This document shows, in pieces, positions 221-46,698 of a DNA stretch of 64,000 bases. The notes under the pieces are model-generated. The model was not told where the DNA came from. It saw only the letters and a program-made list of their open reading frames with translations, and searched no databases. Positions within the stretch are counted from its first letter, which is position 1. Every line of letters begins with the position of its first letter. This DNA is from Candidatus Cybelea sp. (lineage in GTDB: Bacteria > Vulcanimicrobiota > Vulcanimicrobiia > Vulcanimicrobiales > Vulcanimicrobiaceae). The DNA is taken from positions 1 to 64,000 of the forward strand of contig DASXFZ010000029.1 of assembly GCA_036489315.1 (NCBI GenBank), read 5' to 3'. The position numbers were made by a program, and so were the translations under genes.

Positions 221-1399
221 TTACAATACAAAGCCCGTCCGTACGGCGGGACGGGCGTACTTGAATCCGTCCTTGCCGACGGTGTAGAGATAGATGTTCG
301 GAATGAGCGGATCGCCGCTGATGTTGAAGGCGAACTGTCCGACGAGCGCCGTAAACGTACCGCCGTGCTGTAAAGACGTTAGAAGCGAGGTCTTCGTCGT
401 GGCACCTCCACGCTGCGAGGCGGCGATGATCAGCTGTCCGGCGGCGTAACCGAACGCGGAGAACGCCGTGATCTGCGTCACCTCACGCTGAAAATCTGCG
501 ACGAGCTGCACGGCGCTCGTAACGCGATCGAGCGGCGGCATCGGTGAGGCGACGTAGGCGCCGTCGAGCGTCGTTGCGTAGGTCGCGATCGTGTCGCTGT
601 TGTAGAAGCCGTCCGACGCGCCGAAGTCGCCGGTGTATCCGGCCAGCCGAAGCGCGAGCGCGATCGGCCCCATTTCGGCGGTCTTGCCGCTGAGGAAAAC
701 GTAGCCCGGGGCGCGGTCGAAGATCGTTCGCGCGGCTTGCGCGGGATCGGTCTTGTCCAGCGGAAAAAGCAGCAGTTCCGAGGAGTGATGCCCGTTTCGG
801 GCCTCGGCGACGAAGCCGCGCGCGACGTCGTAGCCGTAGTCGCCGTCGAAGGCGACCGCAACGGTCGAAACGCCCCGCTTTCCGTCGAGGGCCGATCCGG
901 CGAAAAGGCGGCCGGCCGTGCTGTCTTTTGCCGGCAGCCGGTAGACGTTGTGGTACCCGCGCCCGGTAACGGCGTCGGCCGTGACGGTCGGGACGATCAG
1001 CGCAAAGCCCATATTGGCGTATCGGGAGAGCGCCGCCAGCGTCATCGCGGCCGTTAAATTCCCAACCACGCCGACGACGGTCGAGTCGGCCGCCGCGACG
1101 TTGGCATTCGAGGCGGCGAGTCCGCCGTCGTTTCGATCGTCCAACGGTTTCAAACCCCACACGTTGCCGATCGGGGCATGGAAACGATTCTGCTCGTCGA
1201 CGGCGGCTTGCACGCCTTTGACGACTTCGTTGCCGTATTTCGCCAAGGCACCCGAGAGCGTCACGTTGACGGCGATCGTCAGCTGGGGAAGAAAATTGTT
1301 GAGCTGATTGATCGGTTGAGCCGGAACGATCTGCGCGGGCGCGCGCGCAGTCGTCGCGGCCGTCGCGGTCGCCGCGGCAAGAAAAGCGCGCCGCTTCAT
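221..1399 (-). CDS. ABC transporter substrate-binding protein, branched-chain amino acid (LivK) type
   Basis: The 392-residue protein starts with a twin-arginine-like signal (MKRRAFLAAA) and a cleavable Ala-rich segment, so it should be exported. The body has the pattern of type 1 periplasmic binding proteins: LSGALAKYGNEVVKG near the start, VVGVVGNLTAAMTLAA before residue 120 and a two-lobed alpha/beta layout. Relatives bind amino acids, amides or urea. Its ATG overlaps the UbiA-type stop by 4 nt (ATGA), so it is the last gene of this minus-strand series. No permease or ATPase gene lies nearby, so it is either an orphan receptor or works with a transporter encoded elsewhere. The substrate cannot be read from sequence. 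Confidence 0.85.
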   Translation of the reverse strand: MKRRAFLAAATATAATTARAPAQIVPAQPINQLNNFLPQLTIAVNVTLSGALAKYGNEVVKGVQAAVDEQNRFHAPIGNVWGLKPLDDRNDGGLAASNANVAAADSTVVGVVGNLTAAMTLAALSRYANMGFALIVPTVTADAVTGRGYHNVYRLPAKDSTAGRLFAGSALDGKRGVSTVAVAFDGDYGYDVARGFVAEARNGHHSSELLLFPLDKTDPAQAARTIFDRAPGYVFLSGKTAEMGPIALALRLAGYTGDFGASDGFYNSDTIATYATTLDGAYVASPMPPLDRVTSAVQLVADFQREVTQITAFSAFGYAAGQLIIAASQRGGATTKTSLLTSLQHGGTFTALVGQFAFNISGDPLIPNIYLYTVGKDGFKYARPAVRTGFVL

Positions 1400-2250
1400 C
1401 GATACGCGCCCAATGTCGTCGCCAAAAAGAAGACCGAAAAGATCATGTTCGAGAGAAAGACGCGCTCGTTGATGACGAACAAATTGGCGCCGCTGCGAAA
1501 TAGGTGCTCTTCATAGAGAACCAAGACCGCGACGGCGACGACGCCGAGATAGTAAGGGCGCCCGGCGCCGTCCAGGATGCCGGCCCACGCCAGCAGGCCG
1601 AGCATTCCCAGATGCAGAGCAATGGGTACGAGCCGGCCGCTGCGCTCGCCGAAGCGAGCCGGCAGCGAGCGAATCCCCTGCGCGCGATCGACTCCGAAGT
1701 CCATCAGCGCGTAGATGATGTCGAAGCCCGCGACCCAGATCGTCACGGCGGCAAAGAGCGCAACCGCCGACGGCGTAATCCTCCCGGCAATGCCGACGTA
1801 GGCGCCAAGGGGAGCGAGACCGTCGACGGCTCCCAGCACGAAATGAGTCAGCCACGTGAAGCGCTTGCAGAGCGGATAGATCAGCAAGAGCACGACAGCG
1901 ATCGGCAGCAGCTTGAGGCACAGTGGGTTTAGCATCCACGCTGCCCATAAAAGAATGCTGAGGCCGATGGCCATCGCCCACAGCATGCTCGAAGGCGGCA
2001 GCGACCCGCTAGCGAGCGCTCGCCTTTGCGTCCGGGGGTTTTGTGCGTCGATCTCGCGGTCTAAGAACCGATTGGCCGCCATCGCCGCGGTGCGCGCCCC
2101 GAGTACCGCCAGCGTGATCCACGCCAGCTTTGCCGGCGCGGGAAGTCCGTGCGCCGCGAGAATCGCGCCGACGTAGGCGAAGGGCAAAGCAAAGAGCGTG
2201 TGCTCGATGCGGATCTCGCGCAAGAAAAGACGAATCCCGTTCAAACGCAC
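1396..2250 (-). CDS. UbiA-family prenyltransferase (quinone biosynthesis)
   Basis: A polytopic membrane protein with about eight hydrophobic helices. The first Asp-rich prenyl-diphosphate motif is seen as NRFLDREID, and a later loop reads DFGVDRAQGIRSLPARFG, typical of UbiA/MqnP enzymes. The family attaches a polyprenyl chain to an aromatic acid. Beside a UbiD-type decarboxylase it probably acts in menaquinone synthesis, possibly the futalosine route (MqnP with MqnL). The frame can be extended to 2313, but that would overlap the upstream UbiD gene by 61 nt. I prefer GTG at 2250, just after the UbiD stop; TTG at 2244, preceded by TAAGG, is also possible. The mature sequence then begins near RLFLREIRIEHTLFALPFAY, as in relatives. 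Confidence 0.88.
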   Translation of the reverse strand: MRLNGIRLFLREIRIEHTLFALPFAYVGAILAAHGLPAPAKLAWITLAVLGARTAAMAANRFLDREIDAQNPRTQRRALASGSLPPSSMLWAMAIGLSILLWAAWMLNPLCLKLLPIAVVLLLIYPLCKRFTWLTHFVLGAVDGLAPLGAYVGIAGRITPSAVALFAAVTIWVAGFDIIYALMDFGVDRAQGIRSLPARFGERSGRLVPIALHLGMLGLLAWAGILDGAGRPYYLGVVAVAVLVLYEEHLFRSGANLFVINERVFLSNMIFSVFFLATTLGAYR

Positions 2251-2252
2251 CC

Positions 2253-3779
2253 TTACGGTTCGTTTCGCGACTGCATCAGCCGTTCGTAGGCGTGCATGCC
2301 TTGCCCGGACCACGGATCGGGACGCAGCGCCTTCGCGATACGGTCGAGCCCGTAGGCGCTCCAGCGCTCGCTAACGAGGCGGCGAGTCGCGGCGTCCATC
2401 AGCATCTCCGGCGGCCATTCCCGCGTGTATCCTTCGGACGCGTCTTTACGGGTCGCGTCGATGCCGATCTTCGTGCCGTACGCGATGCTGTAGGAACCAT
2501 GGTCGAGGTCGTCGACCGGCCCCGGCATCGTCACCACGTCGCGCTCGGGCGCGAGGTTGTTGAGCACGGACCACGCGACCTCGCGCGTTTGCGAGACGTC
2601 GACGTCGGCGTCGACCACGATCAAGACGCGCGTGAGCATCATCATGTGCCCCAATCCCCAGAGCGCGTTCATCACCTTCTTCGCCTGACCCGGATAGGTT
2701 TTGCGAATCGAGACCAGGGCGAGATTGTGGAAGCCGCCTTCGACCGGGAGGTTCATGTCGACCACCTCGGGCAGCATCGCCTGCAGCAACGGCAGGAAGA
2801 TGCGCTCCGTGGCCTTGCCCAGCCACGCGTCTTCCATCGGCGGTTTGCCGACGACGGTAGCGGCGTAGATCGGTTTGCGGCGGTGCGTAATGCACGTAAC
2901 GTGAAACGTTGGATAACGGTCGGCCAAGCTATAGACGCCGGTGTGATCGCCGAATGGGCCTTCGAGCCGAAGGTCTTCGTTGTCAACGTAACCTTCGAGG
3001 ACGAACTCAGCGTCGGCCGGCACGAGGAGGTCGACCTGCTTGGCCGGCGTTAGCTCGACGGGCTTTCCGCGTAAGAGGCCGGCGAACGCAAACTCGTCGA
3101 GCAGCGGCGGAAGCGGGGCGGTCGCCGCGTAGGTGAGCACCGGGTCCGTGCCGATGGCGACGGCGACCGGTACTCGCGTGCCCCAGGCATCGGCGTGTGC
3201 GCGTCCGTGTTTGTGCCGCTGCCAGTGCATGCCGGTCTCCGTCGCGCCGTACACTTGCATGCGATACATTCCGACGTTGGTGCGCCCGCTGTGCGGGTCT
3301 TTCGTGATGACGAGCGGCAACGTGATGAACGGCCCGGCGTCCCGCGGCCAGGTCGTCAAGACCGGCAGCTTCGTCAAATCGGGCTTCTCCATGACGACAT
3401 CCTGCGCGCTCCCTGCGTTGACGGTCTTCGGGATCGCGTTTGCGAGCGGCGCGAAGGCCAGTGCACCGCCGATCTTCTCGACGATCGATCCGCTGGGCGG
3501 GCGCATCGCCGTCAGCGCGGCAACGCGCGCCGCGACTTCGTCGAGGCTCGCGGCCCCCAGCGCCATGGCCATCCGGTGCGCGGTTCCGAACTGATTGGTC
3601 AAAACGGGGAAGCTGGATCCTTTGACATCGGTAAAGAGCAGCGCCGGGCCGCCCGCCTTCACCACGCGGTTGGCGATCTCGCTGATCTCGAGCCGGGGAT
3701 CGACCCTTTCCGAAACGACGTGCAGTTCGCCGGCCTTGCGCAACGCTTCGACGAACGCCTCGAGCGAACGGAATGCCAT
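2253..3779 (-). CDS. ubiD: UbiD-family decarboxylase
   Basis: 508 residues, the usual length for UbiD enzymes, which use prenylated FMN to decarboxylate aromatic or unsaturated acids. Family landmarks are LLFTDVKGSSFPVLTNQFGT near the N-terminus, GMYRMQVYGATETGMHW with HKHGRAHADAWG near residue 180, LEGPFGDHTGVYSLADRYP, and the C-terminal block KIGIDATRK. The glutamate in EGPFGDHTG belongs to the catalytic region. It lies directly upstream of the UbiA-type gene, so prenylation and decarboxylation of the same quinone precursor are likely; in futalosine-pathway bacteria this pair would be MqnL/MqnP. It follows the histidine kinase stop by 26 nt. No UbiX flavin prenyltransferase is in the window. 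Confidence 0.92.
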   Translation of the reverse strand: MAFRSLEAFVEALRKAGELHVVSERVDPRLEISEIANRVVKAGGPALLFTDVKGSSFPVLTNQFGTAHRMAMALGAASLDEVAARVAALTAMRPPSGSIVEKIGGALAFAPLANAIPKTVNAGSAQDVVMEKPDLTKLPVLTTWPRDAGPFITLPLVITKDPHSGRTNVGMYRMQVYGATETGMHWQRHKHGRAHADAWGTRVPVAVAIGTDPVLTYAATAPLPPLLDEFAFAGLLRGKPVELTPAKQVDLLVPADAEFVLEGYVDNEDLRLEGPFGDHTGVYSLADRYPTFHVTCITHRRKPIYAATVVGKPPMEDAWLGKATERIFLPLLQAMLPEVVDMNLPVEGGFHNLALVSIRKTYPGQAKKVMNALWGLGHMMMLTRVLIVVDADVDVSQTREVAWSVLNNLAPERDVVTMPGPVDDLDHGSYSIAYGTKIGIDATRKDASEGYTREWPPEMLMDAATRRLVSERWSAYGLDRIAKALRPDPWSGQGMHAYERLMQSRNEP

Positions 3780-3805: not shown

Positions 3806-4741
3806 TTAACCCTCGCGCGCCGGAAAGGCCGCGACGAAACGCGCACCGCCGCGGGACGAGTCGTCGACGACGACTCCGCCTCCGTGCGCCGACGCGATCC
3901 AGCGGACGATGGCCAGGCCGAGGCCCGCACCGGAACCGTCGTTTGAAAGCCGGTAGAAACGCTCGAAGACGCGTTCCCGATCGTCGCGCGGGACACCGAC
4001 GCCGTCGTCTTCGACGACGATCTCACAGACGCGGCCGTTGCATCGCGAACGAATGCCCACGGTCCGGCGAGCGTGGCGGATCGCATTTTCAAGCAGGTTG
4101 CGCACCAGTTCGCGCAAGCGGCGTTCGTCGCCGTCGACGATGGCGCTGCCTGCGCTTACGTCGAGCGTGACGCCGCGTGCGTCGGCAAGCGGCTGCGTTT
4201 CGCGCGACGTGAGGTTGACGATCGCGGCAAGATCGAGCGGTTCGCAGTGCAGCACGCGCTGTGCCGGATCTCGCGCCAGCGTCAGCAGGTCGGTGACGAC
4301 GTCGGCGGCCTCGAGCGCGGTTCGTGCGATCGTCTCGAACGCCGTGCGGCTCTCTTGCGTAGCGTTCGCGCGCGCGGCTTGCGCGACCGCGGCGATCGCC
4401 GTGAGCGGCGAGCGCAGCTCGTGCGCGGCGTCACCCGTAAAGCGGCGTTCGCGCTCGCGTGCCGCTTCGAGCGGCGCGATCGCCGTGCGCGCCAATAGGT
4501 ACGAAGCGACCGCTACGACGACTACCAGCGGCAAGTCGAATTCGGCGATCGTTGCCACGACGCGATGCATTGCCGCCGCGAACCCGGCGCTCGCCTCCGG
4601 CGTATTGAGTGCCGGGCCGAGCATCGAGCTGTATTCACGGGCAATGAAAGCGTAGGCGCCGATGCTCAGAGCTGCAAGGACGCAAATGAAAACGCAGAGG
4701 TAGAGTGCTGCCGTGCGAACGACTAACGAGGCGCGAATCAA
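3806..4741 (-). CDS. Sensor histidine kinase of a two-component pair
   Basis: 311 residues. Two membrane helices (about 10-35 and 70-87) flank a short extracytoplasmic segment of roughly 35 residues, probably too small for a large ligand domain. Next come the dimerisation H-box GDAAHELRSPLTAI with phospho-accepting His107, the N-box around RNLLENAIRHA and the G-boxes DDGVGVP and GAGLGLAIV. It phosphorylates the OmpR-type regulator encoded 61 nt upstream. The start is TTG (4741); no ATG fits. The 61-nt spacer holds an inverted repeat (GGGAGCC/GGCTCCC, 4769-4775 and 4784-4790) that could lower kinase expression relative to the regulator. The neighbouring copper and haem protein genes suggest it senses metal or redox stress; this is inference. 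Confidence 0.9.
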   Translation of the reverse strand: MIRASLVVRTAALYLCVFICVLAALSIGAYAFIAREYSSMLGPALNTPEASAGFAAAMHRVVATIAEFDLPLVVVVAVASYLLARTAIAPLEAARERERRFTGDAAHELRSPLTAIAAVAQAARANATQESRTAFETIARTALEAADVVTDLLTLARDPAQRVLHCEPLDLAAIVNLTSRETQPLADARGVTLDVSAGSAIVDGDERRLRELVRNLLENAIRHARRTVGIRSRCNGRVCEIVVEDDGVGVPRDDRERVFERFYRLSNDGSGAGLGLAIVRWIASAHGGGVVVDDSSRGGARFVAAFPAREG

Positions 4742-4802: not shown

Positions 4803-5471
4803 CTACGCCTTCACGCGATATCCGATGCCCCAGACCGTCTCGATGATGCCTCTTGCGCCGAGCTTCCCGAGCTTTCGGCGCAGCTGGCTGATATAGACGT
4901 CGACGATGTTGCTCGATCCGTCAAAATCGTAATCCCAGATGCGTTCGACGATCTGCGCGCGAGAGAGGGCGATGCCGGCGTTGCGTGCGAGGAACTCGAG
5001 GAGGCGAAACTCCGTCGCCCCCAACGCGACGGGCTTGCCTTCGTACGTGACGTTACGCGCAGCGAGATCGACACGCAGCGCGCCTACGTCGAGGACGCCG
5101 AACAGGGGCCGTTCGCCGCGACGCAGCATCGCGCTTACGCGCGCGATCAGCTCCTCCTCGACAAACGGCTTCACGAGATAGTCGTCGGCGCCGCAGTTGA
5201 GACCGGCGACCCGGTCTTCGACCGCATCGCGCGCGGTCAGCATGAGGATCGGCGTCTGGACGCCGGCAGCCCGTGCGTTGCGCGCGAGAGTAAAGCCGTC
5301 GAGCCCTGGGAGGCCCACGTCGACGACCGCGACGTCGTACGTGCGGCTGACCAGATGGTCGAGCCCGGTCTCGCCGTCCGAGACGACGTTGGCCGCGTAC
5401 TTTCGCGTCTCGAGCATTTTGCGGATCGAGTCGGCGACCGCGGCGTTATCTTCTACTACGAGTATTCGCAT
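4803..5471 (-). CDS. OmpR/PhoB-family response regulator
   Basis: 222 residues in the standard two-domain form. The receiver has acidic residues ED at 7-8, phospho-acceptor Asp51 in VVDVGLPGLDG, Thr79 and Lys101 in KPF. A winged-helix output domain follows, with EFRLLEFLARNAG and DVYISQLRRKLG, ending in the usual GIGYRV. It should bind DNA direct repeats when phosphorylated by the kinase downstream. It begins 7 nt after the haem-barrel gene stop, so it is probably co-transcribed with the copper/haem genes and may regulate that operon. Confidence 0.93.
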   Translation of the reverse strand: MRILVVEDNAAVADSIRKMLETRKYAANVVSDGETGLDHLVSRTYDVAVVDVGLPGLDGFTLARNARAAGVQTPILMLTARDAVEDRVAGLNCGADDYLVKPFVEEELIARVSAMLRRGERPLFGVLDVGALRVDLAARNVTYEGKPVALGATEFRLLEFLARNAGIALSRAQIVERIWDYDFDGSSNIVDVYISQLRRKLGKLGARGIIETVWGIGYRVKA

Positions 5472-5478
5472 TGTTGTC

Positions 5479-6609
5479 CTAGTTTTTCAGCGGTCCGGGG
5501 AAGGCGATCGTGAAGGCGCCGCTGAGGAACGGATGTTGCCCCGGCGGTTGAACCTCTTGCAGCAAGACCCGGCACGGAGCGATCTGGACCGCAGCGTAAT
5601 AAACGAAGTCACGGTTGATGAACGGGTTCGCATATGCGTCGTAACGCAGGCCGAAGTAGGCGTGCGGAATCGGATAGTATTTCAGGCGCACATATCCACC
5701 CGTTGAATGCTGGTTGGTCAGAAGCCCGTCGGCGTCGTGGTCGTCGCCGTACCACTGTTCGGCTTGGAGATCGAGATCTCCGTAGCTGGCGTGGGCCATC
5801 AGTCCGTACCGTTCGTACAGGTCGGCAAAGGGCAGGCGGCCTGACGGCAAGACGCCGAGCGTGCCGCCCAGCGCGGTCCCGCCGATTTCGAAGAGGCTCT
5901 TGTTGCTTTGGGCGAGCGTCTGGCGCAGCCAGAGGCTAAACTCCGGGCTGCTGTTCCAGGTCGTCTCGCCGGTTGGGACCGGTTTTCCCCCGTAGGGTGC
6001 TCCCTGGAAAGAAGCGAACGCGACGACGCCGTCGACGCGGAGGTTGCCGACCGTCTTCTCCGCCATCAGGCCCCAGCGCGGCGACGAAAGCGGAAGGTTG
6101 TTCAAGCCGACGTGCGCGCCGTAGTAGCCGTACTGCTCGAGATCGTCGAGGCGCTGCCCCGGCGACTGCGTGAGCGGAAGCTCGAAGAGTCCCCCGCGAA
6201 CGAGCGTCTTCGTGTGCTCGTCATAGCCGGCGGCAAAGAGGAGGTAGGTGCCGCTCGGTCCTCCGGCTGCGCCCAGACTGTAGTGCAGAAACGTGGTGAT
6301 CGGTCCGAAGTTTGCACTGCCGAGGACGATGCCGCCCCCCTGCCACTGGCGGGAACCCGACGCCGGATGCTGGTCGTACTCCATCTGATAACGAATCGCG
6401 AAGACGGTCGTGCCGTGCTCGGGCAGCGGCAGACGATATCCATGATTGCGAAAGTAGTTTCCGAACGCGTTGAGTTCGGGAAGGACGCTGTGGCACTGAC
6501 CGCATTTCAGATGATAGCGTTGCGCAAAGATCGGAATCGCGCTCGCCGGCGCGCAGGCCATTCCTACGAGGAGTACCGCGAGCGCTGCGACAGCGGTGCT
6601 ATTGCGCAA
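5479..6609 (-). CDS. Monohaem c-type cytochrome fused to a predicted outer-membrane beta-barrel (Cyc2-like)
   Basis: With TTG at 6609 the protein is 376 residues: a signal peptide (about residues 1-24, ending CAPASA) and then IPIFAQRYHLKCGQCHS, with one haem-c site Cys36-x2-Cys39-His40. PELNAFGNYFRNHGY follows directly. The remaining ~310 residues have no long hydrophobic helix but alternate aromatic/aliphatic and polar residues with Gly/Asn/Asp turns, as in beta-barrels. This matches the plan of fused cytochrome-porins such as Cyc2, which carry electrons across the outer membrane; Cyc2 proteins are usually somewhat longer. The start overlaps the upstream cupredoxin stop by 11 nt; ATG at 6561 would destroy the signal peptide. 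Another small-cytochrome family with a beta-rich domain remains possible. Confidence 0.7.
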   Translation of the reverse strand: MRNSTAVAALAVLLVGMACAPASAIPIFAQRYHLKCGQCHSVLPELNAFGNYFRNHGYRLPLPEHGTTVFAIRYQMEYDQHPASGSRQWQGGGIVLGSANFGPITTFLHYSLGAAGGPSGTYLLFAAGYDEHTKTLVRGGLFELPLTQSPGQRLDDLEQYGYYGAHVGLNNLPLSSPRWGLMAEKTVGNLRVDGVVAFASFQGAPYGGKPVPTGETTWNSSPEFSLWLRQTLAQSNKSLFEIGGTALGGTLGVLPSGRLPFADLYERYGLMAHASYGDLDLQAEQWYGDDHDADGLLTNQHSTGGYVRLKYYPIPHAYFGLRYDAYANPFINRDFVYYAAVQIAPCRVLLQEVQPPGQHPFLSGAFTIAFPGPLKN

Positions 6610-7054
6610 TGATCGCCGCTCGCATCGGTGCGCCGTAGTGGAAGAAACAGCCGAAGAGATAGGTACCGGCGCGATCGACCGCGATGGTCTGCGAGGACGA
6701 TCCGGCCTGGAGCGCTCCGCTGCTGAAGCCGCCCGAGAGGCTCGTTCCGTGTTGCTGCGTTGCCGAGATGCCGAAGGGCGATCCATCGGGGAACTGCGTT
6801 GCATTCGGAATCTCCGTTGCGGTGTGCGCGAAGCTGTCGGTATTCGTGAAGTGGATCTCGGAGCCGACCGCGACGTTCGTAATGGCGGGAGTATAGCCGC
6901 CGCTTTCGCCATACGCCGTTTTCACCGGCTGGCTGAGCGTAAGATTGACGTCGATCGTGGCGCCGCCGCTGCCGCCGCTGGCGACCGGCGTTCCGCCGGC
7001 CGTGCACGCGGCAAGCAGCAGCGCGAGCATCGAGAGGAGGATCCGGCGGCTCAT
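6599..7054 (-). CDS. Cupredoxin (plastocyanin-like) lipoprotein
   Basis: 151 residues. It has a lipoprotein signal with lipobox LAAC (Cys17), then a beta-rich domain with a complete type 1 copper site: His77 (FAHTATE), Cys136, His139 and Met144 in GCFFHYGAPM. Such proteins shuttle single electrons outside the cytoplasmic membrane. It is the third and shortest of three tandem cupredoxin genes that share the ending GTYLfGCxFHY. Its ATG overlaps the stop of the cupredoxin-SCO gene (ATGA), and its own stop is overlapped by the haem-barrel start, implying translational coupling and related stoichiometry. The likely partner is the encoded haem protein. Confidence 0.88.
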   Translation of the reverse strand: MSRRILLSMLALLLAACTAGGTPVASGGSGGATIDVNLTLSQPVKTAYGESGGYTPAITNVAVGSEIHFTNTDSFAHTATEIPNATQFPDGSPFGISATQQHGTSLSGGFSSGALQAGSSSQTIAVDRAGTYLFGCFFHYGAPMRAAIIAQ

Positions 7055-8148
7055 CGCTGTGTGATCCAGCGCCGGCCGGCAAAGGCTGCGACGAGATCGT
7101 CGTCGAGAGCTGTTGAGGCCAGCATCGTCTGCGCGAGCTCGCCCGAAGAGTTGAATGCGTAAACAAAAGTAGAATGACGATCGTGGATGCCGTGCTCTCC
7201 CTCTTCGGAGATCACGTTGAAGGCGCGCATTATTTTGTGGACGTTCGATTTCGATCCGCCCGCGACGATCCAATAGCGAGGGTCGGCGTTGAAGCGATGC
7301 GCGAGCACTTGCATGTCGTGCGGTGAATCGTGTTCGGGGTCGAGGGTAATGGTAAGCAATTTCCCCTCCAGATGACGGTGCTGCATTTGTTCGGCCGCCT
7401 GCTGGAACTGAGCGTTGACGAGTGGGCACGCGTCGGTGCAGTGAGCGGCGATGAAGGTCACCGCGAGCGGTTTGCCGCGCAACGACGAGAGCGTGAAGGG
7501 ACGGCCCCGCTGGTCGATGAGCTGCGGCTCGCCGGGGGCACTTGTCGCTTTCGGGGCTGGTTTGGGAGCACGAGGTTCGTAACCGCCGCTGCCGGGCGAG
7601 GCGCTCGGACCGGGCGTCGCGCCGGCGACGACCTCGATGACGTCCCGCATCTCGAACTCGATATAGTGGAACGCGCAGCCGATGAGGTACGTACCCGGGT
7701 TCGTCAGTTTGACCTTGACGCTCTTTCCCGGATTGATCGTACCGCTGGCGTAGTTGGAGCCTAACACGCCGTTGCCGCTGGGAGAGAAGGAGAGGCTCGG
7801 ATCTTTCGGCCACTTCGCCGGCGGCGAACTCGCGACGGCAATGACGTTGAGCGTGTGCGGCGTGGTCGACGAAAGGTTCGTCACCGCGACCGTAGCTCCG
7901 GGAGGATAGGCCAACACCTGTGAGGTCTTGTTTTGAGTGTAACCGCTGACGGTTCCCCAAACCGGATCGTCTTCGACGCCGATGGTTCCGGTTGGAATGC
8001 CGACACCGATGCCCTTCGAGGGCGGCGGGGAGGGCGTAGGCCCTCCACCACCGCTATTGATGCTGCCGAGACCGCCGCCGTTCGTGCAGGCAGCGATCGC
8101 GCCGGCGGTTACGAGCGCGAAGGCCGCAGCAAGTGTTGGAGACTTCAC
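7051..8148 (-). CDS. Cupredoxin-SCO1 fusion lipoprotein
   Basis: 365 residues. After a lipobox signal (Cys21) and a Gly/Pro linker comes a cupredoxin domain (about 50-175) with type 1 copper ligands His98, Cys158, His161 and Met167. A Pro/Ala/Ser linker (175-205) leads to a SCO1/SenC thioredoxin-fold domain (about 208-360) with the copper motif CTDACP (Cys237, Cys241), the DPEHDSP strand and a likely third ligand His325 (DRHSTFVYAF). SCO proteins deliver copper to the CuA centre of cytochrome oxidase or act as thiol reductants. The fusion suggests electron or copper transfer between the two sites. It overlaps both neighbouring cupredoxin genes by 4 nt. No oxidase subunit gene is in the window. 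Confidence 0.9.
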   Translation of the reverse strand: MKSPTLAAAFALVTAGAIAACTNGGGLGSINSGGGGPTPSPPPSKGIGVGIPTGTIGVEDDPVWGTVSGYTQNKTSQVLAYPPGATVAVTNLSSTTPHTLNVIAVASSPPAKWPKDPSLSFSPSGNGVLGSNYASGTINPGKSVKVKLTNPGTYLIGCAFHYIEFEMRDVIEVVAGATPGPSASPGSGGYEPRAPKPAPKATSAPGEPQLIDQRGRPFTLSSLRGKPLAVTFIAAHCTDACPLVNAQFQQAAEQMQHRHLEGKLLTITLDPEHDSPHDMQVLAHRFNADPRYWIVAGGSKSNVHKIMRAFNVISEEGEHGIHDRHSTFVYAFNSSGELAQTMLASTALDDDLVAAFAGRRWITQR

Positions 8149-8735
8149 TGTCCCGGCGGTGTCGCTTGCGGGCCGGGAGTCGCCTTGGCTTTCACGACGA
8201 TGACGTCGCGCATTCCGTCTTGATAGTGAAAGGCACAGCCGAACAGGTAGGTGCCGGCCTTCGATAGCATGACGCTCACCGACTTGCCGGGCGACAGGAC
8301 GCCGCTCGCGAACTTCGGCCCCAGAACGCCGCCCCCGCGCGCGTTCGTGGTCAGCGACGGACTGCTCGGGAACTTGGCCGGGGCCTTTTTGATCTTTTTC
8401 ACGACGTTCATCGTGTGCGAGATGTTTTTAGAGAGATTCTCCAGCGTGATTTTCGTGCCGGTCGGGAAGCCGAGGGCTTGCGAGAACTTCGTCTGGGTGA
8501 AACCGCCGAGCGTCGCCTTCCAGTGTGGATCGTTGATCGCTCCAAGGCCTTCGCTGGGCAGTTCCTCGCCGATTGTGTCCTTCGGCACGGTCGCGAAGAC
8601 GGTGACGTTTTGATTGTACGACGGAAGGAGCACGGTATTGGCACCCGATGCGCCGGTTCCGGTACCGCCGCCGGCGCAAGCCGCAAGTGAGGCGGCGGCT
8701 ATCGCCAAAGAGAGACCCGCGAGTCGTGTTGACAT
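8145..8735 (-). CDS. Cupredoxin lipoprotein, first gene of the copper/haem operon
   Basis: 196 residues with lipobox SLAAC (Cys20) and a cupredoxin domain carrying His107 (SHTMNV), Cys167, His170 and Met175 (GCAFHYQDGM). It aligns by eye with the cupredoxin half of the downstream fusion (DPxWxxxxG...QTK..SQxLxxPxG, GVLGxxxASG, PGKSV), so the genes are recent paralogues. It is the promoter-proximal gene; the 77 nt before the TPR gene stop should hold the promoter. A Shine-Dalgarno-like GGAGGTTTC precedes the ATG. Confidence 0.88.
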   Translation of the reverse strand: MSTRLAGLSLAIAAASLAACAGGGTGTGASGANTVLLPSYNQNVTVFATVPKDTIGEELPSEGLGAINDPHWKATLGGFTQTKFSQALGFPTGTKITLENLSKNISHTMNVVKKIKKAPAKFPSSPSLTTNARGGGVLGPKFASGVLSPGKSVSVMLSKAGTYLFGCAFHYQDGMRDVIVVKAKATPGPQATPPGQ

Positions 8736-8812: not shown

Positions 8813-9625
8813 TCAGGGAACCCGGATCGAATCGCGCATCGCAGCCGCGATATTTTGCAGGGCCGGGTCTGCACCGGCGTCGCTGCAGGCTCGTTCGAAG
8901 GCACTGCGTGCGGCCGCATGCTCTCCCTCTCTCAGGAGCACGACCCCGAGCGCGAATCGCGCCCGAGCATAGGCCGGCGCGAGCGCTAACGCGCTGCGCA
9001 GTTCTCGCTCCGCCGCATCATAGCGTCCCAGGCGCTCTTCGGCGAGTGCGAGGTCGTAGTGAGCGACCGCATAGGAGGCATTTGCATGGAGGAGTTTTCC
9101 GAAGTCTTGGCGCGCGGTTACCGCGTCGCCGGCGTGCAACGCGACGATTCCGCGCGAGTAGAGCGCGCGCGCCGAGTCCGGATCGAGGGTGACGTAGCGG
9201 TCGGCGGTCGCACGCGCCTCGCCGATGTCGCCGCGCGCGAGATCGACGGCGATGAGATTGGCCATGGCGGCCAAGAAACCGGGATCGAGCGCCAGCGCCG
9301 CGCGCAGTTCGCGTGCGGCGTCGTCGTTGTGCCCGTCGTTTGCGTAGGCGATCGCGAGATCGTACCGGGCCGTCGAGCCTTTGGGTTCGGGCGGATCGAG
9401 TGCGACGATTCGTTCAAACTCGGCGATTGCCGATTTCCAGTCGTTGCGGGATAAGGCGCTCAGCCCGATCCTAAAGCGCTCCTCGACCTCGCGTTGCGTT
9501 GCGAGCGTTCGAAGCGCGGGCTCAGAGGTCGTGCGTGGAAGCGGACGAGACGTCGAATACGTTTGTCCCGTTGCCGCAGCCGTCATCAGACCGGTGAGTA
9601 CGGCGCCGGCAAGCAGAACGCGCAT
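8813..9625 (-). CDS. TPR-repeat protein, exported
   Basis: 270 residues with an N-terminal hydrophobic signal segment. At least five tetratricopeptide repeats run from about residue 50 to 250, with recurring A..Y..G and ALALDP turns (FERIVALDPPEP, AALALDPGF, RYVTLDPDSA, SALALAPAYA). TPR domains are protein-binding scaffolds, here probably periplasmic. The gene ends 77 nt before the first cupredoxin gene and starts 3 nt after the stop of a small exported protein, so it is likely co-transcribed with the latter. The function cannot be specified. Confidence 0.85.
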   Translation of the reverse strand: MRVLLAGAVLTGLMTAAATGQTYSTSRPLPRTTSEPALRTLATQREVEERFRIGLSALSRNDWKSAIAEFERIVALDPPEPKGSTARYDLAIAYANDGHNDDAARELRAALALDPGFLAAMANLIAVDLARGDIGEARATADRYVTLDPDSARALYSRGIVALHAGDAVTARQDFGKLLHANASYAVAHYDLALAEERLGRYDAAERELRSALALAPAYARARFALGVVLLREGEHAAARSAFERACSDAGADPALQNIAAAMRDSIRVP

Positions 9626-9628
9626 CGT

Positions 9629-9898
9629 TCACGGATTACCCGCGCCGGCAGGGAGTTCGGCCTGGCGCCATCCGGTAGAGGACGCCGCGCGCTCCGGTTT
9701 GCACTCCCATCCGGTCCGGCCGGCCGAAGTAATGGGGCCGAGCATCGCGGGGGCCGCCGATGGGGTCAAAACGCCCGCGATTGCGTCCTCGAGCGACTCT
9801 GCCCCGGCTACGGCAAAGTGGCCGCAAGCGATGAGGAGTGCGAGCAGCACAGAAACGACGACGGGATGGAGCGGGGTTCTTGACACTCCTTCCATCAT
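9629..9898 (-). CDS. Small exported protein of unknown function
   Basis: From ATG at 9898 (or the adjacent ATG at 9895) this gives about 89 residues: a hydrophobic export signal (VVVSVLLALLIACGHFAVAGA) and then a short Ser/Ala/Gly-rich segment with a single Cys (GWECKPERA). The frame extends upstream to 10024, but that part is basic, low-complexity and overlaps the receptor gene. No family is recognised. The stop lies 3 nt before the TPR gene start. The divergent receptor gene starts only 21 nt away. Confidence 0.5.
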   Translation of the reverse strand: MMEGVSRTPLHPVVVSVLLALLIACGHFAVAGAESLEDAIAGVLTPSAAPAMLGPITSAGRTGWECKPERAASSTGWRQAELPAGAGNP

Positions 9899-9919
9899 AG
9901 CCGAAAGTCTAAAGAATCC

Positions 9920-11770
9920 GTGAACCTCCCGCATAACGGCGCGGCGGCGCTCCTTTTGGTGATGCTGGTGGCGCTCCCCGCGCGGGCTGCGGCTCCGTTG
10001 GTTGTGGGCGCCGTCCGAGATCAAGGCGGAGTCCCTATCTCCGGCGCGAGCGTCGAGGGGCGGCGGTTCGGAGCCCCGCCGGTACTCGCAACGACCGATT
10101 CTTCCGGTACCTTTGCGATCGATGCGGCGGGCATCTCATCGGTCGTCATCCGCTGCCGGTACTGTGCTGCAGCCCAGGCGGGGGTACGCGAGGGCGAGCC
10201 GGTCGTCGTCATCGTCCGCCGGTATGCGGCGCTCGCGAGCGACGCGCCCAACGCTTCGGATATCGAGAGCCTCCCGTACGCAAACGTCGAGTCTATCCTC
10301 GGATTGCGTCCCTTTACGCTGCTGGCGCAGAGCCAGAGCCCCTATCCCGGCTCCCGCGTCAGCGACCGCGGGCTCTCGCCGGACGGATCGCTGCTGGTCG
10401 ACGACGGCTCTCCGAACTACGACATCGTCGCCGGCGGCTCTCCCTACGCGCTGATCCCCGCGCAGTTCGAGCGCAGCGCCGCGCTGCAGCCTGCGAGCAA
10501 TGCGTTTCTCTATGGTGATCAGGCCGCCGGCGGCATTGCCGACCTTAACCCTTTCGTCAGCGATTCGAACTGGCAGGTTGCAAGCGTTGGGAGCGATACA
10601 ATCGCCCGCGCGCAGGTGGGTTCCGACGCAGCGGGCGCGGTGTTCGGAGCGTTCAGCAACGATACCGAGTCGCGCCAGCGCGGTGACGTGTCGGCGACTT
10701 GGTCTCCGGGCGGCGATCAAACGCTCGCATTCACCGGCGGAAGCGAACAGGGGCGGACCTTCGGAACGCCGCTGTCGAATTACGCGGGAAGCTACTCTTT
10801 CGTCAACGCGACCTATGCGAATCCGCAGCTCGAGAACCTGTACGCCTCGGCGGCTGTAGACCGGGGAAACTATACGTTCGGCTCGGCGGCGTACTCGGCC
10901 GCCGCGATCTGGTCGGACTCGAACGTTCTGATCGGTGCGCACACGTCTGGCGCGGTCTCGGCGTTCGCCGATCTCGGACTGCGGCTCTCCACCGGCCTCT
11001 ACGATCAGCAGGCCGGGTGGTCGCTGTTGCCTAGCATCGGCGCTACGCTCTCGCAGTCGCGGCTCGACGCCGGCATTCACGCGACCGGCGCCGGCTACGA
11101 TGTCAAAGCCGGCCTCGGTGCCTTTTGGATAGATTATGGAGGCGGATTGTACGGCGTGTCGCAGCCGGCAAAGACCACGCTGGCCGCGCCGTCCTTGCAG
11201 GCGCAGCTCTTTCCCGAGGGTCGCTGGAGCCTCAATATCCAGGGCAGCGGCTCGTTTACGCTCCCGACCTTCCTCGAGCAGTACGATTACATCGACTACC
11301 CGCCGACGTCGGTGCAGCTCGAGCGCAACGAGCTCGTCGCCGGAGCCTTAACGTACACGGATCTTTCCCGCGTTCGCGTTTCGTTCGAGGAGGCCTCACA
11401 GCGGGTTACCGGGGTTACCACCGGTACGATTACCTCCGCCGGGCTGGCCGCGACCTGGCAGGTGACGCCCGAGCTCGCGCTGCGCGCGTGGACGATGCAC
11501 GTTACCGACACGGTGACGCCGTTCGTCGTCGCGGGTTACGATGAAGGCTCGGCGCCGACCGTCAATGCGATGTGGTTGACGTACGAAGCGCGCAGCCCGC
11601 TTCGCTTCGACCTCATCTACCGGCGAGATCTCCTTGACGGCACGCCGTTCTATCACGTCGACGGTGACGTTTCGGGACCAATTGCCGCACGGCTGCGGTG
11701 GTTTGCCGGCGTGGAGGATCGCATGCATCGCACGTTCCTCGATGTCGGATTGCGCTTCGGCGGTCAGTGA
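9920..11770 (+). CDS. TonB-dependent-receptor-like outer-membrane protein
   Basis: 616 residues starting at GTG. A signal peptide (to about residue 24, ARAAA) is followed by a carboxypeptidase-regulatory-like beta domain (LVVGAVRDQGGVPISGASV to about 95). Then comes a plug-like region (SDRGLSPDGSLLVDDGSP... FERSAALQPASNAFLYGDQAAGGIADL) and a barrel-like remainder with many short beta strands, ending LDVGLRFGGQ. The plug signature matches TonB-dependent receptors, though 616 residues is short for a full 22-strand barrel. The ligand is unknown. A TonB-like protein is encoded at 34 kb. Convergent with pnp, with 28 nt between stops. Confidence 0.8.
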   Translation: MNLPHNGAAALLLVMLVALPARAAAPLVVGAVRDQGGVPISGASVEGRRFGAPPVLATTDSSGTFAIDAAGISSVVIRCRYCAAAQAGVREGEPVVVIVRRYAALASDAPNASDIESLPYANVESILGLRPFTLLAQSQSPYPGSRVSDRGLSPDGSLLVDDGSPNYDIVAGGSPYALIPAQFERSAALQPASNAFLYGDQAAGGIADLNPFVSDSNWQVASVGSDTIARAQVGSDAAGAVFGAFSNDTESRQRGDVSATWSPGGDQTLAFTGGSEQGRTFGTPLSNYAGSYSFVNATYANPQLENLYASAAVDRGNYTFGSAAYSAAAIWSDSNVLIGAHTSGAVSAFADLGLRLSTGLYDQQAGWSLLPSIGATLSQSRLDAGIHATGAGYDVKAGLGAFWIDYGGGLYGVSQPAKTTLAAPSLQAQLFPEGRWSLNIQGSGSFTLPTFLEQYDYIDYPPTSVQLERNELVAGALTYTDLSRVRVSFEEASQRVTGVTTGTITSAGLAATWQVTPELALRAWTMHVTDTVTPFVVAGYDEGSAPTVNAMWLTYEARSPLRFDLIYRRDLLDGTPFYHVDGDVSGPIAARLRWFAGVEDRMHRTFLDVGLRFGGQ

Positions 11771-45174: not shown

Positions 45175-46698
45175 CTATGGTTTGTAGCTGCTGACCTGCG
45201 CTTGCGTTACCGCCGAGGCTTTATTGTTTCCGAGGCTGCCGCGAATGTAGGTGATGACGTCGGCGATGTCCTTATTCGAAAGCTGACCCTTCCACGCGGG
45301 CATCTGTCCGTTGTACGTCATGCCGGCGATGGAGATCTGGCCGTGCAGGCCGTTGAGCACGATCCCGATGACGGTTTTCGCATCGCCGGTTACGACGGGA
45401 TTGTTGGCGAGCGGCGGAAACGCTCCCGGCGTACCTTGCCCTTGCGCGCCGTGACAGGTCGCGCAGTTCGCAGAGAAAACCTTCGAGCCGTTGGCGTTGG
45501 CGACGCCGCCGGCCGCGGAGCCGCCCGTGCCCGAATTCGCTGCCGTTGCCGTGCCGGGAGAGCCCGGGAGCGTCGCCGCCGCAGCCTCGCTCAGCACGAC
45601 CGATTCGGGTGGTGACGCCGGGGCCGCCGCCTGTTTGGCCATCGTCGTAACTTGCCCGTAGATCGTGAGCCCGATTATCCCAAAGACGACGATCGCCGTC
45701 GACCATAAGAGGCCCGTGCGCCCTGCAAAGCTTCGCGTGCGGGTGCGATCGAGCCACGGCAGCAGTAGAACCACCACGAGGAATAATGTTGGGACGATGA
45801 TCGTCGCGATCAGCTCGGTGCCGATCGACAGCGGCCCGAGATGAATTTCCGCCGGCACGAGCGCCAATAACCCGAAGAGCGAGAGAAAATACCAAGCCGG
45901 ATACGGTACGAAAAACTTCGTCGGATCGGCCTTCGCGTCGAGATACGGCGGGAACGCGAACGAGAGGAAGCAGATGATGATGAAGACGATGAACGAGAAC
46001 GCGCCGTCCATGAAGAACTGATCGGGCCAGAACCGCCCGGGGCGCAACGTACGGCGATCCTCGACGACGGGGCCCGCCGAACCGTTATGGCGGAAGATCG
46101 CCAGGTGCGCGCCGACAAGCAGGACGAGCACGGCCGGCATCAGCCAGACGTGAAGCCCGAAGAAGCGGTTGATCGTCTCCGTGCCCATTCCGCCGCCGCC
46201 CTGCGCGATGTGCTGAATCATCGGACCGGCCATCGGAGCGAGGCCGGTTATATTGAGCGATACCTGCGACGCGAAATATGCGTCCATGTCCCAGGGCAGA
46301 AGATAGCCGGTGAGGCCGAGCACCAGCGTAACCAGCAGCAGCAGAACGCCGACGACCCACTGCAGTTCGCGCGGCGACTTATACGCGCCGAAAATCAAGA
46401 CTTGCAGCAAGTGCAGGAAGACCAGGGCGATCATCGCCGACGCGCCCCAGTAGTGCACCGATAGAAGGAAGTGCGTGTACGGATTGAGATAGATCGCGCG
46501 CGTCGATTCCCAGGCCGTCGCAGCCGACGGTGCGTAGAAAAACGTCAGGAATATCCCCGTGACGATCTGCACGATCATCGCGAAGAGCGTCGCGCTTCCG
46601 AAAACGTACCAATAGCTCGCGCCGCCCGGGACGTCCTCGGTGAGGAACTCCTTGGCCATCGAGACGAATCCAGTGCGCTTTTCGATCCAGTTGAGCAT
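45175..46698 (-). CDS. Cytochrome b fused to a cytochrome c domain (bc complex)
   Basis: 507 residues. The b-type core has helices with the haem-ligand histidines in LSVHYWGAS...VFLHLL and GLHVWLMPAVLVLLVGAHL, the quinone-site region and the C-terminal half with PYPAWYFLSLFG (the PEWY-like motif reads PAWY). After about residue 375 an Ala/Gly/Ser linker leads to a cytochrome c with CATCHG and a distal Met (NGQMPAW). One chain thus carries electrons from quinol to an attached haem c, as in some Gram-positive and early-branching menaquinol complexes. It starts 11 nt after the Rieske gene stop. Confidence 0.95.
   Translation of the reverse strand: MLNWIEKRTGFVSMAKEFLTEDVPGGASYWYVFGSATLFAMIVQIVTGIFLTFFYAPSAATAWESTRAIYLNPYTHFLLSVHYWGASAMIALVFLHLLQVLIFGAYKSPRELQWVVGVLLLLVTLVLGLTGYLLPWDMDAYFASQVSLNITGLAPMAGPMIQHIAQGGGGMGTETINRFFGLHVWLMPAVLVLLVGAHLAIFRHNGSAGPVVEDRRTLRPGRFWPDQFFMDGAFSFIVFIIICFLSFAFPPYLDAKADPTKFFVPYPAWYFLSLFGLLALVPAEIHLGPLSIGTELIATIIVPTLFLVVVLLLPWLDRTRTRSFAGRTGLLWSTAIVVFGIIGLTIYGQVTTMAKQAAAPASPPESVVLSEAAAATLPGSPGTATAANSGTGGSAAGGVANANGSKVFSANCATCHGAQGQGTPGAFPPLANNPVVTGDAKTVIGIVLNGLHGQISIAGMTYNGQMPAWKGQLSNKDIADVITYIRGSLGNNKASAVTQAQVSSYKP

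Follow-up and report, generated by a model that had tools for sequence, protein, structure and literature searches.

A cupredoxin-SCO fusion lipoprotein gene in a conserved Cyc2-like cytochrome-porin cluster of Candidatus Cybelea

Background

What is an SCO domain doing on the same polypeptide as a type 1 cupredoxin? A type 1 copper site depends on one copper and on a cysteine in the reduced state, and SCO proteins, which are tied to CuA sites, provide a dithiol and a copper site; to our knowledge, the usual view is that blue copper proteins obtain their copper without a dedicated chaperone. The question was raised by an open reading frame in the window (the whole stretch of DNA analysed, 64,000 nucleotides from Candidatus Cybelea sp.), for which an earlier note, made from the letters alone, had proposed a lipoprotein with a type 1 copper site and an SCO copper site joined by a flexible linker. 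What that note described (a real gene, both copper-site signatures, the linker and the flanking cupredoxins) stood up to the present analysis; it had missed the Cyc2-like cytochrome-porin of the same cluster and the fusion's probable single origin in the genus.

Structure of the fusion gene

The cupredoxin-SCO fusion gene lies on the minus strand, which the note had left unsaid (7051..8148; GTG start, TGA stop), and the frame runs from 8148 to 7051 through 365 codons (365 amino acids) without interruption. In order, and all on this strand, it encodes a putative lipoprotein signal peptide with the lipobox cysteine C21 (IAAC; residues 1-21, 8086..8148), a type 1 copper (cupredoxin) domain (residues 46-180, approximately; 7609..8013), a hydrophilic linker (residues 181-205, 7534..7608), and an SCO1/SenC domain (residues 206-365, 7054..7533). 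The lipoprotein assignment was made from C21 under the lipobox rule; this cysteine is kept in 14/14 fused rows that reach that far. The ligand numbering given previously was right, and each residue was located in the sequence, namely H98 (7855-7857), C158 (7675-7677), H161 (7666-7668), and M167 (7648-7650) for the cupredoxin and C237 (7438-7440), C241 (7426-7428), and H325 (7174-7176) for SCO. With an unbroken frame and all seven ligands, it is a single lipoprotein gene in which both copper-site signatures are intact, as had been claimed. A misassembly or a frameshift joining two separate genes, which the note had named as the explanation that would undo this claim, was checked and is ruled out, because 14 further genomes have the same frame, likewise uninterrupted.

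In the AlphaFold (AF2) model of the fusion, two confident domains are separated by a stretch with pLDDT below 50 (residues 182-197), in agreement with the flexible linker; since this linker is of low pLDDT and the pTM is 0.53, the mutual orientation of the two domains is undefined in the model.

Identity of the two domains

Both domains belong in themselves to known families. The type 1 ligand set (His/Cys-x2-His/Met) was invariant in the cupredoxin rows of alignment A2 (40/40) and in the rows of alignment A3 (35/35). The fusion's own cupredoxin half had no Pfam match at the thresholds used; PF00127 was matched by 11 of the 35 aligned homologues of this domain (E <= 0.01), and its gathering score (21.2) was exceeded by the paralogues that flank the fusion, CupA (23.4 bits) and CupC (24.6 bits). 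For the fusion half itself, a marginal profile match to the solved type 1 copper protein 6kol was obtained (E 0.0018), and a beta domain was predicted (AF2; strands with pLDDT 74-96 in blocks 81-180). In structure searches with the fusion model (Foldseek, VIA), SCO and thioredoxin-fold proteins took up the match lists. The domain has the H...C-x2-H...M ligand set in common with plastocyanin/azurin-type cupredoxins (PF00127) and differs from them in that an additional residue separates His from Met (H-x5-M) and in that it lies below Pfam detection. Among the A3 homologues, the loop between these two ligands has 4 residues in 18/35, 5 in 14/35, and 6 in 3/35; this varying length might tune the redox potential.

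The SCO half was matched by PF02630 (SCO1-SenC) at residues 209-337 (E 5.2e-19, 69 bits, cut-off 22.8). The motif CXXXC-Xn-H, which defines SCO according to PMC9145763, is present as C237, C241, and H325, and C, C, and H were found in 46/46 SCO rows. When compared with solved SCO structures (VIA), this half gave Z scores of 15.8-20.4, with 6n5u as the best match (Z 20.4, 156 residues, 2.5 A) and human SCO1 at Z 20.0. It has the thioredoxin-like fold, CxxxC, the distal His, and a predicted membrane anchoring in common with the SCO1/SenC/PrrC copper chaperones (PF02630), but it sits C-terminally on a type 1 cupredoxin, and it is linked to cupredoxins and a cytochrome-porin, not to an oxidase. 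Canonical SCO proteins are described as membrane anchored (PMC9145763), and the family is best known for CuA sites, not for type 1 sites (PMC7558416, PMC9145763).

Gene neighbourhood

Cupredoxin genes adjoin the fusion directly on both sides, as had been stated before. CupA, a cupredoxin lipoprotein (8145..8735, minus strand, PF00127), has its stop codon overlapping the start of the fusion by 4 bases (GTGA), and CupC, a plastocyanin-like lipoprotein (6599..7054, minus strand, PF00127), has its start codon overlapping the fusion's stop by 4 bases (ATGA). The end of CupC is in turn overlapped by the gene of a Cyc2-like outer-membrane cytochrome-porin (5479..6609, minus strand), two genes downstream of the fusion. 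These successive start/stop overlaps (CupA/fusion, fusion/CupC, CupC/cytochrome-porin) suggest that the four genes are read as one transcript, and all three cupredoxins look like lipoproteins. On the same strand follow an OmpR-type response regulator (4803..5471; Response_reg and Trans_reg_C) and a sensor histidine kinase (3806..4741; HisKA and HATPase_c). The upstream neighbours are a conserved secreted TPR protein (8813..9625, minus strand; TPR families, synteny), a small predicted secreted protein that is conserved and had no Pfam match (9629..9937, minus strand), and, divergently oriented, a TonB-receptor-like barrel with a CarboxypepD_reg-like start (9920..11770, plus strand; both Pfam matches below the gathering score). 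The latter two are conserved beside the cluster.

Throughout the genus, the order TonB-like (divergent), small secreted protein, TPR protein, CupA, fusion, CupC, cytochrome-porin, response regulator, kinase, UbiD, UbiA, and binding protein is conserved; CupA is absent from the locus in some genomes, as far as detected, and CupC is doubled in two. The conserved flank at 221..3779 (minus strand), which comprises UbiD (2253-3779), UbiA (1396-2313), and a periplasmic binding protein (221-1399), is listed as such, with no implication of membership in the same system. Elsewhere in the window (45175-46698), a cytochrome b (judged by eye) and a C-terminal CxxCH cytochrome c domain were found in one frame.

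The Cyc2-like cytochrome-porin

The cytochrome-porin gene has a TTG start, assigned by reference to its orthologues. Its product contains one CxxCH haem motif, and its model has 16 strands (mean pLDDT 78.8) and resembles porins in fold, with OprP (2o4v) at TM 0.57 relative to the query length. The segment AxPxFAQRY-x3-CxxCH-x3-PEL is invariant in 38/38 rows. In PMC8406198, Cyc2 is characterised by AXPXFAR[Q/K][T/Y], CXXCH, and PXL, with a 16-stranded barrel resembling OprO/OprP. The present protein has the single CXXCH, the 16-stranded barrel, and the PXL four residues after CXXCH (PEL at +4); the exact AXPXFAR[Q/K][T/Y] motif was found in none of the 38 rows, all of which have Q-R in place of R-[Q/K] and agree in the remaining letters. 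Because these two middle letters stand in the opposite order (FAQRY here, FAR[Q/K][T/Y] in the Cyc2 of iron-oxidase operons), the protein is named Cyc2-like, not Cyc2.

Matches to the cytochrome-porin are present in 101 of 149 genomes of the phylum (E <= 1e-10, a count that includes weak paralogues). The window's own genome has at least two cytochrome-porins, since a second, distant copy with AIPLFAHQY-x3-CEKCH lies on another contig (L105:6825-7958, contig C8). A Cyc2-like gene, possibly the present one, has been reported in one MAG of the Eremiobacterota (PMC8357290). As in the Cyc2 iron-oxidase operons, such as the rus operon of Acidithiobacillus (cyc2-cyc1-cup-cox-rus), a single-haem, 16-stranded cytochrome-porin stands beside blue copper proteins (PMC8406198 and PMC10654088); in contrast to the rus operon, the present cluster has neither cox genes nor a separate cytochrome c, and it has an SCO domain and a two-component system. 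Iron would be only one candidate for the electron donor.

Distribution and origin of the fusion

The full-length fusion was found in 15 of the 18 genomes of the genus (the window included), the other 14 proteins being 62-70% identical to that of the window, and all seven copper ligands are kept in 15/15 fused proteins. In two members of the genus (G015 and G017), the cupredoxin and SCO are separate neighbouring genes, and the locus went undetected in a third (G006, 65% complete). In a tree built from six neighbour proteins of 24 genomes, G015 and G017 are sister to the 15 fused genomes, with a support of 100 for each group; the fusion therefore most simply arose once within the genus.

The junctions are informative about how the genes merged. 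In G015 and G017, the cupredoxin ends with GGY and a stop codon; the SCO gene begins one base further on, shifted to the +1 frame, and encodes a hydrophobic signal peptide of its own. The start of the fusion linker (GGY) corresponds to these last codons of the unfused gene; GGY is kept in 13/15 fusions and is followed by the hydrophilic linker where the signal peptide stood, the distance from the GGY point to the SCO domain being 15-30 residues. The best ten-residue hydropathy was -1.68 to 0.69 in the fusion linkers, whereas the signals of five unfused SCO proteins gave 2.46 to 3.21. From this comparison, the merger is placed at the old cupredoxin stop codon, with a change of frame and the loss of the signal peptide. 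Based on dN/dS values in seven close pairs (cupredoxin 0.04-0.23, SCO 0.11-0.19, linker 0.05-0.65), the cupredoxin and SCO domains are both under purifying selection, and the linker is mostly less so.

The search for the fusion outside the genus covered 149 genomes of the phylum, in which a match of both domains was obtained only in G104, where it is interrupted by TAA. Two further candidates suggested by the lengths of their open frames (G121 and G116) were rejected, as the DNA has a stop between the genes, and none of the 31 non-fused SCO loci examined proved to be fused. Outside the phylum, 56 plasmid records matched and none covered 80% of the fusion query; among the 30 rows listed, all or nearly all matched through the SCO part. 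A scan of genome contigs with the fusion returned one relative, from the same phylum. As the search outside the phylum covered plasmids together with this one contig scan, the architecture may exist elsewhere. No title or abstract opening in the literature covered, which was partial, describes a cupredoxin-SCO fusion, and the SCO genome surveys cited in PMC9145763 and PMC11218638 may hold one. A near likeness is a pair of adjacent, co-induced genes of the same two families, cupredoxin-domain and SCO, in Haloferax mediterranei (E6P09_05575/05570; PMC11218638); in contrast to the fusion, they are separate, archaeal, and accompanied by thioredoxin and cytochrome c biogenesis genes, and the accessible part of that source mentions no Cyc2-like gene.

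Linkage of SCO with cupredoxins, the cytochrome-porin, and oxidases

Among 99 genomes of the family, SCO and the cytochrome-porin were both present in 49, SCO alone in 5, the porin alone in 3, and neither in 42 (SCO, E <= 1e-20; strong matches for the cytochrome-porin; the genomes counted are related to one another). Where the two co-occur, they lie on the same contig within 10 kb in 49/49 genomes. A cupredoxin is encoded within 1 kb of such an SCO in 40/46 loci, 15 of them fused; the six loci without one belong to G031, G111, G112, G113, G114, and G120. Two genomes (G030 and G117) have the cytochrome-porin and no SCO of the fusion type at the cut-off used, and one (G029) has it away from the cluster. 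In all four genomes of a second family (G037-G040), SCO and a cupredoxin are divergent neighbours and the cytochrome-porin lies on other contigs. Since the 1-kb linkage persists even there, a cupredoxin is the most constant partner of the SCO of the fusion type. No haem-copper oxidase gene was found in the window around the fusion; the three haem-copper oxidases of the same genome are on contigs C1, C12, and C44, and the cluster is on contig C29. The genome also contains two CuA-type (COX2) genes and, on contig C48, two further SCO-domain genes.

Role of the SCO domain

In the reading best supported, the SCO domain serves the attached and adjacent cupredoxins by reducing their type 1 sites, by metallating them, or by both, and these cupredoxins would act as carriers linking the Cyc2-like cytochrome with the inner membrane. 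We give it about an even chance (a probability of roughly 0.5); it is favoured because of the linkage within 1 kb in 40/46 loci, which is also seen with divergent genes, and because no haem-copper oxidase gene is nearby. Counting against it are the CuA sites for which SCO is best known, the six SCO loci with no cupredoxin found within 1 kb, the separate contigs of the second family, the genomes G030, G117, and G029, and the inexact match to the Cyc2 motif. One alternative follows the known role of SCO, in which the fusion would be an ordinary CuA assembly factor for an oxidase elsewhere in the genome and the cupredoxin half would merely supply the membrane anchor. The two COX2 genes agree with this, and so does the lipoprotein anchor, which replaces SCO's own secretion signal in a family whose canonical members are anchored; the distance from any oxidase gene, the two other SCO-domain genes available for such a task, and the long-term linkage to cupredoxins and the cytochrome-porin instead make it improbable. 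Slightly less improbable is a redox relay, in which SCO, through its copper or its dithiol, would be the electron partner of the attached cupredoxin in a two-centre carrier and not a maturation factor. Fixed 1:1 tethering through a linker of 15-30 residues would suit such a carrier, as would the electron carriers encoded by the surrounding genes. All metallochaperone residues are kept, however, no additional haem or redox site is present, and SCO normally cycles only slowly through its thiols and Cu(I)/Cu(II).

The merger might instead be neutral, with neighbouring genes joined by stop loss, both halves keeping their old jobs, and the tethering of little matter. In G104, G121, and G116, the genes are parted by one in-frame stop and 0-2 codons, so that fusion would be easy. 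Against this, the +1-frame start of SCO in G015 and G017 and the signal peptide encoded there mean that a merger required both a change of frame and the loss of a hydrophobic signal; every one of the 15 genomes in the clade has kept the fused frame, with a linker that stays hydrophilic, and we rank neutrality just below a CuA assembly role. Least probable of the four alternatives is a copper-stress module controlled by the adjacent two-component system, in which the cupredoxins and SCO would buffer copper in the periplasm or render it harmless. The response regulator and kinase do follow the cluster directly and are conserved, but the genes scanned gave no match to an efflux pump or a multicopper oxidase, the kinase has no obvious Cys/His/Met-rich sensor loop (by eye in the sequence), and the cytochrome-porin is left unexplained.

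If the SCO domain does serve the cupredoxins, the cluster would work as follows. From the sequence features, we infer copper binding at both sites of the fusion and lipid anchoring of its product, which would thus combine, in the periplasm, a type 1 copper electron carrier with a tethered SCO domain acting as copper chaperone/thiol reductase. Its setting would be an outer-membrane electron conduit composed of the Cyc2-like single-haem cytochrome-porin and three cupredoxin lipoproteins, one of them the fusion's own domain. Since the SCO domain is joined to one cupredoxin and would be produced along with two more, it would be well placed to reduce and/or load them; Cys237, Cys241, and His325 may hold the single cysteine ligand of each cupredoxin in the reduced state and/or pass copper to the type 1 sites. 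As lipoproteins, the cupredoxins would sit at the membrane facing the periplasm, where the haem domain of Cyc2 is also expected (PMC8406198), and would connect the cytochrome-porin with the inner-membrane chain as electron carriers. The direction, towards the inner membrane, is suggested by analogy with Acidithiobacillus, in which Cyc2 hands electrons to the blue copper protein rusticyanin; published Cyc2 operons likewise pair Cyc2 with blue copper proteins (both PMC10654088).

Conclusions

Both the genus-fixed fusion and the separate linked genes suggest that the physical partner of SCO is a type 1 cupredoxin, a partnership that is directly testable on one polypeptide and offers a test case for the copper supply of electron carriers. 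A conserved Cyc2-like gene cluster is also brought to attention, in a phylum for which a Cyc2-like gene had been reported from one MAG (PMC8357290). It is a tentative further step to regard the cis-fused SCO as a dedicated maturation factor that would serve every cupredoxin of a Cyc2-like system for electron uptake, possibly an iron-oxidising one, in soil Eremiobacterota; if true, it would represent a new class of SCO clients and a new layout of a Cyc2-like pathway.
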